DNA from: Brevundimonas sp.
GTDB lineage: Bacteria > Pseudomonadota > Alphaproteobacteria > Caulobacterales > Caulobacteraceae
Direction of reading: 5' to 3'
Length of the DNA: 16,102 nt
NCBI RefSeq assembly: GCF_031082345.1
Contig: NZ_JAVHLH010000023.1
Location: 1 to 16,102, forward strand
Made by a program: the position numbers and the translations under genes. The notes under the pieces are model-generated. The model was not told where the DNA came from, did no database searches, and worked only from the letters and a program-made list of their open reading frames with translations. Position 1 is the stretch's first letter; every line of letters begins with the position of its first letter. Below are positions 3,288 to 15,780 of this stretch, in pieces.

Positions 3288-3330
3288 GGCGAATGAGAGA
3301 GCAGCTGCGGACAGGCGCGGCGGAGAAAGT

Positions 3331-3358
3331 TTGGTGGCGCACGGCCTTGCATTATAGG
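3331..3358 (+). promoter_or_regulatory. Possible promoter of the HNH cassette
   Basis: TTGGTG (3331-3336), a 16-base spacer and TATAGG (3353-3358) form a weak match to a housekeeping promoter. It would give a leader of about 30 bases before the TTG start at 3395. A small inverted repeat, GCTAG-N7-CTAGC (3360-3376), sits at the expected transcription start and could bind a regulator. The elements are visible but their function is inferred. No better candidate lies between the DUF167 gene and the cassette. Confidence 0.3.
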
Positions 3359-3394
3359 TGCTAGCTCGAACCTAGCGATTTCGGATGCAAGAAT

Positions 3395-4096
3395 TTGAAG
3401 TGCTCTCGCGGTGAAGCCAATCCAAGCGCGGCAACGCGAACAAAGCTGTTCGCCGACTCTGCGGGCTATTGTCAGAATCCGGCTTGTACGCAGCACTTGT
3501 TCGTCGAGACAGCGAAGGACGGACCCATCCACTTCGCTGAAATGGCCCACATCTTCGCAGCGAGCGAGCGGGGACCGAGGTCGAACGCAGACCTGACCGA
3601 CGCTGAGCGAGGGTCATACGACAACCTCATCCTCCTTTGCGCCAACTGTCACACGGCCATCGACAAGGCACCTGACGACTATCCGGACACGTTGATCAGA
3701 CAATGGAAACTCGAACGGGCGGAACGGCTGGCAGACCTGTTTTCCGTCAAGGCTTATGGCTCCCGTGCCGAAGTTCGTGCGGTTATCGAACCGCTACTAA
3801 CGGCGAACAGGGTCACATTCGAAACCTACGGTCCAGGCTCCGACGCACGGTTTGATCTTGAGAGTGAGGTGCCCGCCGCTTGGCACCGTAAGGTGCTCGG
3901 AAGCATCATCCCGAACAACAAGCGGGTCTTGGCAACTTTGGACAAAAATCGAGGCTTGGCGGCCGGCCGGGAGTTCACAACAATTGAGGCCTTTCGCCAG
4001 CACACTGACGACCTTATCGCTCGCCACCTCACGGGTGCAGACGGCGGACAAAGATTCCCTGAGGCAATGGACCGGATGATGGTGGGTGATGCCTGA
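3395..4096 (+). CDS. HNH endonuclease, first gene of cassette
   Basis: This 233-residue protein has an N-terminal zinc-supported HNH nuclease domain. Visible elements are CQNPAC (C26, C31), AEMAHI (H52, the first H of HNH), YDNLILLC (N77, C82) and ANCH (C85, H86), so both zinc-type cysteine pairs and all the H/N/H residues are present. HNH domains of this layout cut DNA with a metal ion. The C-terminal part (about 120-233) has separate conserved-looking blocks: YGP (145-147), IIPNN (171-175), H203 and a final RFPEAMDRMM (220-229). From memory, such a tail follows HNH domains elsewhere, but its role is unknown to me. The only start before the CQNPAC motif in this frame is TTG at 3395, because an in-frame stop lies at 3362. 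It overlaps the next gene by 8 to 11 bases. GC content is visibly lower than in the neighbours, suggesting transfer. Confidence 0.88.
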   Translation: MKCSRGEANPSAATRTKLFADSAGYCQNPACTQHLFVETAKDGPIHFAEMAHIFAASERGPRSNADLTDAERGSYDNLILLCANCHTAIDKAPDDYPDTLIRQWKLERAERLADLFSVKAYGSRAEVRAVIEPLLTANRVTFETYGPGSDARFDLESEVPAAWHRKVLGSIIPNNKRVLATLDKNRGLAAGREFTTIEAFRQHTDDLIARHLTGADGGQRFPEAMDRMMVGDA

Positions 4097-4748
4097 CCAC
4101 GCAAACTGGCTAGTCGGAGTCCTGCCTCAGCATGCAGAAGTCACACGCCTCGAACGTCTCGGGCCAAGCCTCGTGCGGGTTGAGCGGAAGGCGGCGCCCC
4201 CTGCAATCATTGGCGTGATTTCGACCGACCCAGTTCGAATGGATGACTGTGAGGAGTTGTTGGGCGGTAGTCCGCGTCCGGATTTTATTCTAAATATACC
4301 CAAGTCCGCAAAGTGGCTGGGAGATGTAATAGACACCTTGGAAGCCCAGGGTTTATCTTGGGGCAAGATGTATGACCTTTATCGTGCTCTGAACTTTGAA
4401 AACGATGTCTCAGATTATCGCAATCCCGGCCTGTCGTTTATCGAACGGCTATTCCAACAGCATAGGAATGTGGACCACCTCGAACGCGTAAGCGATCAGG
4501 TCTATCGCCTTCACCGTGGGAAGGGTGAGCCTGTCGTGGTGGCCTTGACGGACGCGTACGAAGTAACCGCAGACGCGGTGCGTTCAGCATATGGATTACT
4601 CGCGCCGTTCGACGTTCTCCTCAAGAACACTCCCTACGGTCGCATTTCAACCCAAGGATCGGCAGCCGCTGCCGAACTTGGCATCGAAATATGTGATCAA
4701 TCCAGTATCTTTACCCGGTTAAGAAATGACGGCGCAGGCGATCATTAG
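4089..4748 (+). CDS. Unknown protein with internal duplication, cassette middle gene
   Basis: I do not recognise this protein. It is 219 residues from the ATG at 4089; a GTG at 4086 is equally possible and adds one residue. By eye it contains two diverged copies of one module, residues about 19-102 and 129-213 (numbered from the GTG), related at a nearly constant offset of 110. V19/V129, LER 22-24/132-134, R31/R141, R34/R144, P39/P149, D66/D176 and G89/G199 coincide. Each copy looks alpha/beta. The second half runs FDVLLKNTPYGRISTQ then AAAAELGIEI, a strand-helix-strand pattern a little like the end of restriction-endonuclease-type folds, but no catalytic motif is evident. There is no signal peptide or membrane segment, so it is probably cytoplasmic. 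It overlaps the genes on both sides, so a shared function with the nuclease and nucleotidyltransferase is likely. Confidence 0.8.
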   Translation: MPDHANWLVGVLPQHAEVTRLERLGPSLVRVERKAAPPAIIGVISTDPVRMDDCEELLGGSPRPDFILNIPKSAKWLGDVIDTLEAQGLSWGKMYDLYRALNFENDVSDYRNPGLSFIERLFQQHRNVDHLERVSDQVYRLHRGKGEPVVVALTDAYEVTADAVRSAYGLLAPFDVLLKNTPYGRISTQGSAAAAELGIEICDQSSIFTRLRNDGAGDH

Positions 4749-5028
4749 AGCGATCGCTGAGACAGTTGGCAGCCTGAGGACAAGAGAGCGCCTCGACGCC
4801 TTTGTCTTCGGCTCGGCTCTTGATCAGCAAACGACGACATGGTCGGACATCGACATCCTGCTGATCTGTGAACTTGAGGCTGACGGACTTCTGGCTCGAG
4901 AGAGTTTAGCGGAGCTTTCTGACAAGTTCCCGATCGACCTAACCATCATGTTGGCCAAGGAGGAGATGGAGCTCGACTTCATCAGGTCGGAACGGTGCCG
5001 CTGGCTCACGTCATCCATGAGCGAGTAG
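4726..5028 (+). CDS. Minimal nucleotidyltransferase (MNT-type), cassette third gene
   Basis: This 100-residue protein is a minimal nucleotidyltransferase of the Pol-beta superfamily. GS at 29-30, SDIDILLI with D41 and D43, and the third carboxylate D71 in PIDLTIM complete the expected metal triad. Such domains transfer a nucleotide or AMP to a protein, RNA or small molecule. Many stand-alone copies are antitoxins of HEPN-MNT pairs, where they AMPylate the toxin. No HEPN protein is recognisable here, because the preceding gene looks alpha/beta. The loop between GS and SDID (ALDQQTTTW) lacks the usual Arg and Gly. The ATG at 4726 lies 23 bases inside the upstream gene and has only a weak ribosome-binding site, which suggests translational coupling. 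A protective or modifying role towards the HNH nuclease is possible but inferred. Confidence 0.87.
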   Translation: MTAQAIIRAIAETVGSLRTRERLDAFVFGSALDQQTTTWSDIDILLICELEADGLLARESLAELSDKFPIDLTIMLAKEEMELDFIRSERCRWLTSSMSE

Positions 5029-5061
5029 TTTGGTGAGCCACTTCGGCTCGCGCCAAGGAAA

Positions 5062-5089
5062 GGGCGCGGCCCCCTGCAGCGCCGCGCCC
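5062..5089. terminator. Hairpin terminator between convergent genes
   Basis: GGGCGCGGC (5062-5070) and GCCGCGCCC (5081-5089) form a perfect 9-bp GC stem with a 10-base loop, between the convergent ends of the nucleotidyltransferase gene and etfA. Read on the minus strand the stem is followed by TTTCCTT, so it fits best as the intrinsic terminator of etfBA. On the plus strand the T-run is poor. It also marks the right edge of the low-GC cassette. Confidence 0.7.
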
Positions 5090-5114
5090 GTCCTGATCGG
5101 ATTTTGGCCGGCCC

Positions 5115-10107: not shown

Positions 10108-10524
10108 ATGACCGCTGCTCCGACCCCGCTGACCCAGGCTTTCTTCCACGGGACGAGGGCCTCTCTGGCGCCCGGTGACCGGATCGAGGCCGGCCGGCCC
10201 TCCAACTACGGGACCGGCAAGGCCGCGGCCTGGAGCTATGTGACCGCGACGCTGGACGCCGCCGTCTGGGGCGCAGAGCTGGCCGCCGGCGACGGCACGG
10301 CCCGCATCTATGTGGTGGAGCCGACCGGGCCGGTCGAGAACGATCCCAATCTCACTGACAAGCGGTTTCCGGGCAATCCGTCGATGTCGTACCGCACCCG
10401 CGAGCCCGTGCGGGTGCTGGGCGAAGTCAAAGGCTGGGAAGGGCATTCGCCCGGGCAGATCGAGGCGATGAAGGCCCATCTGGCCGAACTGGACCGGCTG
10501 GGCGTCGAGGCGATCGAGGACTGA
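10108..10524 (+). CDS. arr: NAD+-rifampin ADP-ribosyltransferase
   Basis: This 138-residue enzyme of the Arr family transfers ADP-ribose from NAD+ to a hydroxyl of rifamycins and inactivates them. The family core is intact: FFHGTRASLAPGD (H14), SNYGTGKAAAWSYVTATLD (Y44), AAVWGAELA, then IYVVEPTGPVENDPNLTDKR (D79) and FPGNPSMSYRTREPVRV. H14, Y44 and D79 line up at a constant offset of five with the catalytic H19, Y49 and D84 described for the Mycobacterium smegmatis enzyme. No integron or transposon sequence is nearby and the base composition matches the host, so this is probably an intrinsic chromosomal gene and not a mobile resistance cassette. It converges on ahcY. Confidence 0.95.
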   Translation: MTAAPTPLTQAFFHGTRASLAPGDRIEAGRPSNYGTGKAAAWSYVTATLDAAVWGAELAAGDGTARIYVVEPTGPVENDPNLTDKRFPGNPSMSYRTREPVRVLGEVKGWEGHSPGQIEAMKAHLAELDRLGVEAIED

Positions 10525-14719: not shown

Positions 14720-14807
14720 GGCATCAGGCAACAGGCAACAGGGGACGCCGAGCCTGACGTCAGCGACGAGCCGCTTCCTGCTCCCTGCTGCCTGCTGCCT
14801 GATGCCT
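14719..14807. terminator. Stop-to-stop hairpin with repeated arms
   Basis: The arm at 14719-14743 (starting AGGCATCAGGCAACAGGC) pairs with 14783-14807 (ending GCTGCCTGATGCCT). There are 23 Watson-Crick pairs in a 25-bp stem with two A-C mismatches, plus one further G-T pair. It starts on the last base of one stop codon and ends inside the stop of the convergent ABC ATPase gene, so it fills the whole gap. Each arm contains a short direct repeat (GGCAACA twice; CTGCCTG units). The loop holds CTGACGTCAG, a 10-bp palindrome. It is a probable bidirectional terminator and possibly a mobile repeat. Confidence 0.65.
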
Positions 14808-15780
14808 AGTCTTTGGTCGGATCCGCCTGCCCCGCGTCGCCGTAGGTCAGGGCGAGGAAGACGTCTTCCAGATCGGGATCTTCCGTCGAGATGTCGGCGA
14901 TGGTGACGCCGGCGGCGCGCACCGCCGCCAGCACCTGTTCGACCGAGGCCTGGCCCTTCTTGTAGGTGACGGCGAAGGCGCCGTTCGGGCGGGCGACGGC
15001 CTCGAAACCCTTGAGCGTCGGCAGGCCGTCGAGTTCGCCCTCGGGCGTCACGATGACGTTGCGGGTGTCGAGTCGGCGCAGCAGCTGGGGCGTCGGCTCG
15101 CAGGCGACCACCTGGCCGCGGTTCATGATGGCGATGGTGTCGCAGAGCTCCTGCGCCTCTTCCAGATAGTGGGTGGTCAGCAGGATGGTGACGCCTTCGG
15201 CGTTGATGCGGCGGACATACTCCCAGAGCTGGCGGCGCAGCTCGACGTCGACCCCGGCGGTGGGCTCGTCGAGGATCAGGATCGGCGGATTGTGCACCAG
15301 GGCCTTGGCCACCATCAGGCGGCGCTTCATGCCGCCGGACAGGGCGCGGACATAGGCATGGGCCTTGTCGCTGAGGCCGAGGGCGGCGAGCAGTTCGTCG
15401 GAGCGGCGCTCATTGGCCGGGACGCCGTAGAAGCCGGCCTGGACCTCGAGGGCTTCCCGGGGGGTGAAGAAGACGTCGGCGACGATCTCCTGCGGCACCA
15501 CGCCGAGGGCGGCGCGGGCGGCGCGCGGCTGTTTGTCGATGTCGCGGCCCCAGATCTCGGCCGTGCCGCCAGTCTTGTTGACCACCCCGGCGAGGATGTT
15601 GATCAGGGTCGACTTACCGGCGCCGTTGGGACCCAGCAGGCCGAACATCGAGCCACGCGGAATGACCAGGTCGACGCCGCGCAGGGCGACCTTTGGCGGG
15701 GCCTTCTTCGATCCGGCGTAGGTCTTCTCCAGCCCGCGCACCTCGATGGCGTTGACGGGCAGCGGGTCTTGAACGGTCAT
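14806..15780 (-). CDS. ABC transporter ATP-binding protein
   Basis: This 324-residue ABC ATPase is of the ABC-2 export type (drug, polysaccharide or similar exporters). Walker A is GPNGAGKST (50-58), the Q-loop is VPQE (Q97), the signature is LSGGMKRR (147-154), Walker B is ILILDEP (167-173) and the H-loop is TTHYLEE. A C-terminal domain of about 90 residues follows (TPEGELDGLPTLKGFEAVARPNG...), as in DrrA-like proteins. No permease gene lies next to it on this strand. The gene ends in a convergent terminator and its upstream side is a divergent promoter region, so its membrane partner must be encoded elsewhere. Substrate unknown. Confidence 0.93.
   Translation of the reverse strand: MTVQDPLPVNAIEVRGLEKTYAGSKKAPPKVALRGVDLVIPRGSMFGLLGPNGAGKSTLINILAGVVNKTGGTAEIWGRDIDKQPRAARAALGVVPQEIVADVFFTPREALEVQAGFYGVPANERRSDELLAALGLSDKAHAYVRALSGGMKRRLMVAKALVHNPPILILDEPTAGVDVELRRQLWEYVRRINAEGVTILLTTHYLEEAQELCDTIAIMNRGQVVACEPTPQLLRRLDTRNVIVTPEGELDGLPTLKGFEAVARPNGAFAVTYKKGQASVEQVLAAVRAAGVTIADISTEDPDLEDVFLALTYGDAGQADPTKD

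Follow-up and report, generated by a model that had tools for sequence, protein, structure and literature searches.

Three overlapping genes in a 16,102-nucleotide stretch of Brevundimonas sp. DNA (the window) seem to form a compact, horizontally moving module directed against phages or mobile genetic elements, in which an HNH nuclease would be the effector, a pseudo-restriction endonuclease its platform and a minimal nucleotidyltransferase (NTase) its off-switch. We give this reading a probability of roughly 0.55; the broader statement that the trio is a conflict or defence module with an HNH effector is very probable. As far as can be read from sequence, the trio is characterised by close linkage in a constant order, co-divergence of the genes, intact HNH and NTase motifs, an invariant tyrosine, purifying selection and several insertion sites, and an anti-phage role is what we infer for it. 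Searches of Pfam, NCBIfam (June 2026), PADLOC and PHROGs gave no named system to which it could be assigned, in line with an earlier note (made from the sequence alone) whose author knew of none with this gene order, and as far as these libraries go it is a new combination within a known kind of multi-gene defence module.

The HNH endonuclease gene (3395..4096, + strand, 233 aa) begins with TTG, the middle gene (4089..4748, + strand, 219 aa) with ATG at 4089 or, alternatively, GTG at 4086, and the NTase gene (4726..5028, + strand, 100 aa) with ATG. The first two share 8 bases (11 with the GTG start) and the last two share 23, exactly the overlaps that had been described. The earlier note had placed the three genes between a DUF167 gene and etfA, to which the ORFs and the Pfam matches of the flanks agree. 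The range it gave, 3365..5028, is correct at its end, but its first 30 bases (3365-3394) lie upstream of the HNH start codon; the same start residue is found in several database homologues, others starting further upstream. The lower G+C content that had been noticed is evident as well, with 0.56 for the cassette versus 0.72 and 0.69 for its flanks. No mobility gene was noticed within the window when its ORF list was inspected by eye.

The DUF167-etfA site was compared with 29 same-genus etfA loci (L022-L050, L021 being the window itself). DUF167 is matched in 23 of these (partially in two), and no match occurs in the stretch taken around etfA in six. The interval between the two genes measures 66-1057 bp in the 23 relatives (152 bp or less in 12). 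The window has 1831 bp at this place, and another Brevundimonas copy of the trio (L002) has 1838 bp. The cassette is thus an insertion, relatives showing the site without the cassette, as the earlier note had suggested they might. By comparison with these relatives, the left edge falls within 3288..3394, a segment bounded by the DUF167 start and the first codon of the HNH gene, and the right edge within 5029..5114, which holds a G+C-rich inverted repeat (about 5060-5091) that, judged by eye, is likely the etfA terminator. Since this repeat is also present before etfA at several of the short sites, it can be taken as the right-hand limit of the cassette, whose left-hand limit is the DUF167 start. 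In a mechanical ORF listing (50 aa or more), each of the 11 intervals longer than 250 bp proved to hold other ORFs, so that the DUF167-etfA interval is a variable site in the genus. The closest trio was found in a Brevundimonas MAG. The L002 copy occupies the same site as that of the window, 4.7 kb can be aligned at 83% identity, and the dN/dS values between the two are 0.10 (HNH), 0.13 (middle) and 0.20 (NTase), which together indicate an old insertion under purifying selection.

The trio is rare and very patchy: the middle protein was found in one of 150 genomes searched (the window's own), a match to the HNH protein with an E-value of 1e-20 or lower occurred in 5 of 398 genomes of the phylum (that of the window being one of them), and 30 relatives of the middle protein, close copies included, were retrieved among 5.8 billion proteins. 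Two subtypes can be distinguished, with a double (type A, n = 18) or a single-copy (type B, n = 8) middle protein. Among loci with a full-length HNH gene and downstream DNA, the order HNH, middle, NTase is kept at 26 of 27, window included, which settles the co-occurrence that the earlier note had thought worth counting. Scanning the genome collection with an alignment of the middle protein gave five loci, all five with the three genes in order, and 20 of the 21 full-length loci retrieved through the HNH protein (4 of the 398 genomes in addition to that of the window, 2 further full-length matches, 8 plasmid loci and 7 viral-contig loci) have the middle and NTase genes behind it. The plasmid loci examined are 8 of the 13 records that carry the HNH tail; in PLSDB the HNH C-terminal domain occurs in 13 plasmid records, and the double (9) and single (4) middle proteins occur in the same 13. 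The one exception, L058, has a full-length type-B HNH gene without middle or NTase gene, near reading frames that we take to be transposase-like and secretion-like. In all 19 trios measured (with start codons of our choosing), adjacent genes either overlap or are separated by no more than 3 bases, and a comparison of 14 type-A trios showed that the pairwise distances co-vary (r 0.96, 0.88 and 0.92; 0 of 2000 permutations in each case). The trios are carried by chromosomes, plasmids and prophages, the named carriers all being Pseudomonadota. When two type-B trio sequences were compared with complete E. coli genomes at the DNA level, neither was matched, which may be part of the reason why E. 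coli-centred screens did not meet the trio.

The HNH protein is matched by Pfam HNH_2 and its HNH motif is intact, residues of about 8-117 making up a Cap5-type HNH/zinc domain and residues of about 118-233 a domain that is helical in the predicted model, i.e. the extra C-terminal region that had been pointed out. Its head matches Cap5 of CBASS as well as HMMs of other defence effectors, and its structural matches include McrA-type HNH restriction enzymes; the conservation of this head is partly by construction, since loci were retrieved through it (with two patterns). Pseudomonas and Burkholderia also yield HNH proteins.

The third gene had been called a complete minimal nucleotidyltransferase, which holds: it encodes FGS...DxD plus a third acid (PID), is matched by NTP_transf_2 and weakly by Polbeta, in the latter case below the model's cut-off. 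F28, G29, S30, D41 and D43 are present in 26 of 26 NTases, a conservation that is partly by construction because the motif helped to recognise the genes, while the third acid position, which is covered by 18 of the NTases, holds D or H in 17 of them and S in one. The protein weakly matches PDC-S09/M05A, and its PDB matches include minimal NTases, among them the Mnt antidote 5yep (E 0.018). At two loci the NTase is truncated, to 71 aa in L015 (8262-8474) and 70 aa in L018 (8040-8249, with IS66 genes close behind), and the HNH and middle genes are intact there. Given these two truncations and the solitary HNH gene of L058, the NTase may be dispensable, which would be awkward for an essential antitoxin.

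The earlier note recognised no family in the middle protein, and none of Pfam, NCBIfam (June 2026), PADLOC and PHROGs offers a model for it. It is a real tandem internal duplication, as had been supposed: in a profile comparison its N-terminal half scores 46.5 against its C-terminal half, versus 17.6 for the best of 100 column shuffles. Both halves probably adopt a restriction-endonuclease-like fold, judging from predicted models in which the alpha-beta-beta-beta-alpha-beta core was sought; the structural matches are middling (Z at most 7.9, Foldseek E 0.03 or worse), with EndoMS, LlaBIII and BspD6I among the top ones and MspJI lower. The lysine position of the (D/E)xK motif (in a register inferred from the model's strands) is a tyrosine in all 26 middle proteins and the acidic residue two positions earlier is present in 13 of the 26, so that a catalytic (D/E)xK motif is lacking and the protein is predicted to be catalytically dead. 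This tyrosine, Tyr157, is the sole residue invariant across both middle types among those tallied, and 20 of the 26 proteins come from loci that were not retrieved via the middle protein.

The probable fold of both halves, together with the McrA-type enzymes among the matches of the HNH head, would also suit a restriction-like system, in which certain kinds of DNA (perhaps modified, branched or broken) are bound by the double pseudonuclease, which guides the HNH protein there, the NTase being only a modulator. However, no methylase or other self/non-self mark was noticed among the listed ORFs around five trios (although a phage-type DNA methyltransferase is encoded about 2 kb from the trio of one viral-contig locus, L066), and a conserved NTase would be left unexplained, so that we consider restriction-like recognition unlikely, and a defence module gated by its NTase remains the preferred reading.

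The surroundings of the trios point towards defence, and the earlier note's proposal to look for known defence genes nearby was a fruitful one, several trios lying near such genes or in prophage cargo slots. PADLOC identified a Shedu SduA directly upstream (L014, a separate neighbour), a Hachiman HamA at about 4 kb (L015), a TIR protein directly upstream (L057), an LmuB-like ATPase downstream (L006) and a QatA/PifA-like NTPase nearby (L016), and gave no match for three other neighbours tested. From the record annotations, DRT3 stands directly behind one trio (L019), an ABC-3C system forms a separate operon on the other strand from another (L013), and a DUF4238 protein, of a type reported to resist T7 (PMC9122126), is found near that of L016. 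By annotated name, a defence gene is present in 3 of 8 plasmid trio neighbourhoods (114 features) versus none of 160 features in control regions of 50 kb, one taken from another part of each of four of these plasmids, a control that is small, analyst-chosen and limited to annotated names.

The trio also has carriers that are themselves mobile. Some trios reside on conjugative plasmids, and on viral contigs an integrase lies within 3 kb of the trio (L065, L067 and L068), an endolysin at 3.4 kb (L066) or a terminase adjoining it (L071); PHROGs gave no match for two neighbours in L069. Directly upstream of the L071 prophage trio is a 612-aa gene (1-1836, open at its start) with a DUF4365 domain and no PHROGs family, which is possibly another defence gene. 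In a P2-like prophage region (L072:894-10185) a type-B trio sits between a gpA-like replication protein and the portal/terminase genes, i.e. in the gpA-gpQ interval, where P2-like phages are described as being especially diverse and rich in anti-phage systems, a hotspot of both (PMC9122126). A further trio (L004:9116-11111) is bracketed by a 175-bp direct repeat (92.6% identity) of the 3' end of guaA (identified by Pfam), each copy of which contains GAGTGGGA, the sequence given as the integration site of the GIsul2 island at the guaA 3' end (PMC9376610). Apart from the trio and one antisense frame, the DNA between the two copies has no ORF that reaches 80 aa, and no recombinase ORF is among those present; the cassette may move in trans or by homologous recombination. 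The trio of L005 also lies directly behind guaA.

Conjugative plasmids, prophages and an island-like insertion are the carriers that would be expected of an addiction module (toxin-antitoxin) that stabilises such elements and gives no protection against phages, and the pairing of a nuclease with a minimal NTase resembles the MNT-linked toxin-antitoxin pairs (PMC3710099). On the other hand, three genes are conserved and not two, the chromosomal site in Brevundimonas is under purifying selection with no mobility gene noticed in the window, and the gpA-gpQ slot and the defence neighbours fit immunity better. Stabilisation of the carrier is thus improbable as the role of the trio, and it is immunity that we continue to favour.

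Several named systems share a part with the trio. The HNH head is of the Cap5 type, but the CBASS effector Cap5 has a SAVED sensor, which is absent here (the SAVED-HNH profiles of PADLOC align only with residues 4-123), and CBASS has a CD-NTase, in contrast to the 100-residue minimal NTase of the trio, for which no CD-NTase model was matched at E up to 1. Unlike Cap5, moreover, the HNH protein has a helical tail and a pseudo-restriction-endonuclease partner, and membership of CBASS was rejected for want of CD-NTase and SAVED. The type VII HEPN/MNT systems (HepT-MntA) likewise have a minimal NTase beside a nuclease; in the trio, however, the nuclease is HNH, a third protein is present and the NTase comes last in the operon, whereas MNT is almost always first in MNT-HEPN pairs (PMC3710099). 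With 23.4 bits against the MntA model (NCBI cut-off 60) and no HEPN family among the Pfam and NCBIfam matches of the trio proteins scanned, this assignment was rejected too, although a very divergent HEPN could still hide in the helical tail.

PDC-M68A has the same HNH head and is the best PADLOC match of the window's HNH protein (E 3.2e-30), but it aligns only over positions 6-110 of 253, and its five loci (in 5 of 200 genomes searched) contain no middle or NTase homologue (E up to 1, 1.5 kb flanks), so that only the head is shared and PDC-M68 was rejected. The ABC-3C systems with HNH effectors resemble the trio in their HNH head and in having a middle component in the operon; they differ in that the trio has no ATPase gene, has a pseudo-restriction endonuclease in the middle and includes an NTase. 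No ABC ATPase lies in or beside the window's trio, the sole one noticed in the window (14806-15780, - strand) being of the ABC-transporter type and 9.8 kb away, and ABC-3C was rejected on this ground. Shedu comes into view through one model of SduA with an HNH-like head (E 6.6e-11), which aligns solely with the HNH head; a Pfam scan found no DUF4263 in the trio, and in the absence of this nuclease domain Shedu was rejected. In Hailong (HalA-HalB), an NTase controls an effector, much as is proposed here, but the effector of the trio is HNH; the window's NTase does not match HalB at E up to 1, and with the Vibrio NTase (L012) at 17.2 bits (E 0.0029), far below the cut-off of 190, Hailong was rejected as well.

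The same comparisons bear on second-messenger signalling (CBASS- or Hailong-like), in which the NTase makes a nucleotide or oligonucleotide, either in response to infection or all the time, and this product is sensed by the middle protein or by the HNH tail so as to switch the HNH nuclease. The closeness of the head to Cap5, which is activated by the CBASS messenger (PMC8568899), the FGS-DxD motif in 26 of 26 NTases and the weak HalB match from Vibrio would all agree with this, but the missing SAVED domain, the minimal size of an NTase that no CD-NTase model recognises and the low HalB score argue the other way, which makes signalling quite improbable. Finally, repair proteins too can have REase-like and NTase folds, but housekeeping genes for DNA repair or processing, unrelated to conflict, are very hard to reconcile with so patchy a distribution (middle protein in 1 of 150 genomes, HNH protein in 5 of 398), several insertion sites and mobile carriers.

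For the defence module, then, the following course of events can be envisaged. The HNH protein would be the effector, cutting DNA with its Cap5-type head and a helical tail of its own, and the middle protein (double in type A, single in type B) would act as a DNA- or partner-binding platform that forms a complex with the HNH protein and holds or aims it. The effector is accompanied by the NTase and the pseudonuclease at almost every locus, and for this reason it is probably under their control. MntA is an NTase that modifies its toxin, and by this analogy our first guess is that the NTase puts a nucleotide on a partner (e.g. by AMPylation) and thereby keeps the nuclease off, although a role as off-switch should be taken as tentative, its chances being slightly under even. 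The likeliest acceptor would be Tyr157, which occupies the place of the lysine in the dead active site, but its identity as such is doubtful. For comparison, MNT antitoxins have been proposed to nucleotidylate a conserved tyrosine of HEPN toxins (PMC3710099). Infection, as the putative trigger, would then upset the modification or the complex, upon which the nuclease is freed. In its most specific form, this would amount to an unnamed class of immunity, with a minimal NTase that gates an HNH nuclease via a dead restriction-endonuclease fold by nucleotidylating the tyrosine at the catalytic-lysine position, in double and single versions on a cassette of 1.6-1.8 kb, a description that is rather unlikely to hold in full.

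The trio has thus been kept together across its carriers although its middle protein is not modelled in any of the four libraries. If cells are indeed protected by the module, it brings in an HNH effector under the joint control of a pseudonuclease and an NTase, and it raises the question of whether minimal NTases act beyond HEPN toxins, on a tyrosine that replaces a catalytic lysine. Should the reading of a nucleotidylated tyrosine be true, a nuclease fold would have been turned into a modification switch.

Two further observations were made along the way. At L060, L061 and L063, proteins with the HNH head are followed by an overlapping ORF of 75-82 aa, and these pairs are presumably HNH-effector ABC-3C operons. 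Elsewhere in the window, a 138-aa ORF (10108-10524, + strand) resembles the rifampin ADP-ribosyltransferase family Arr-ms (PF12120, E 2.5e-45).
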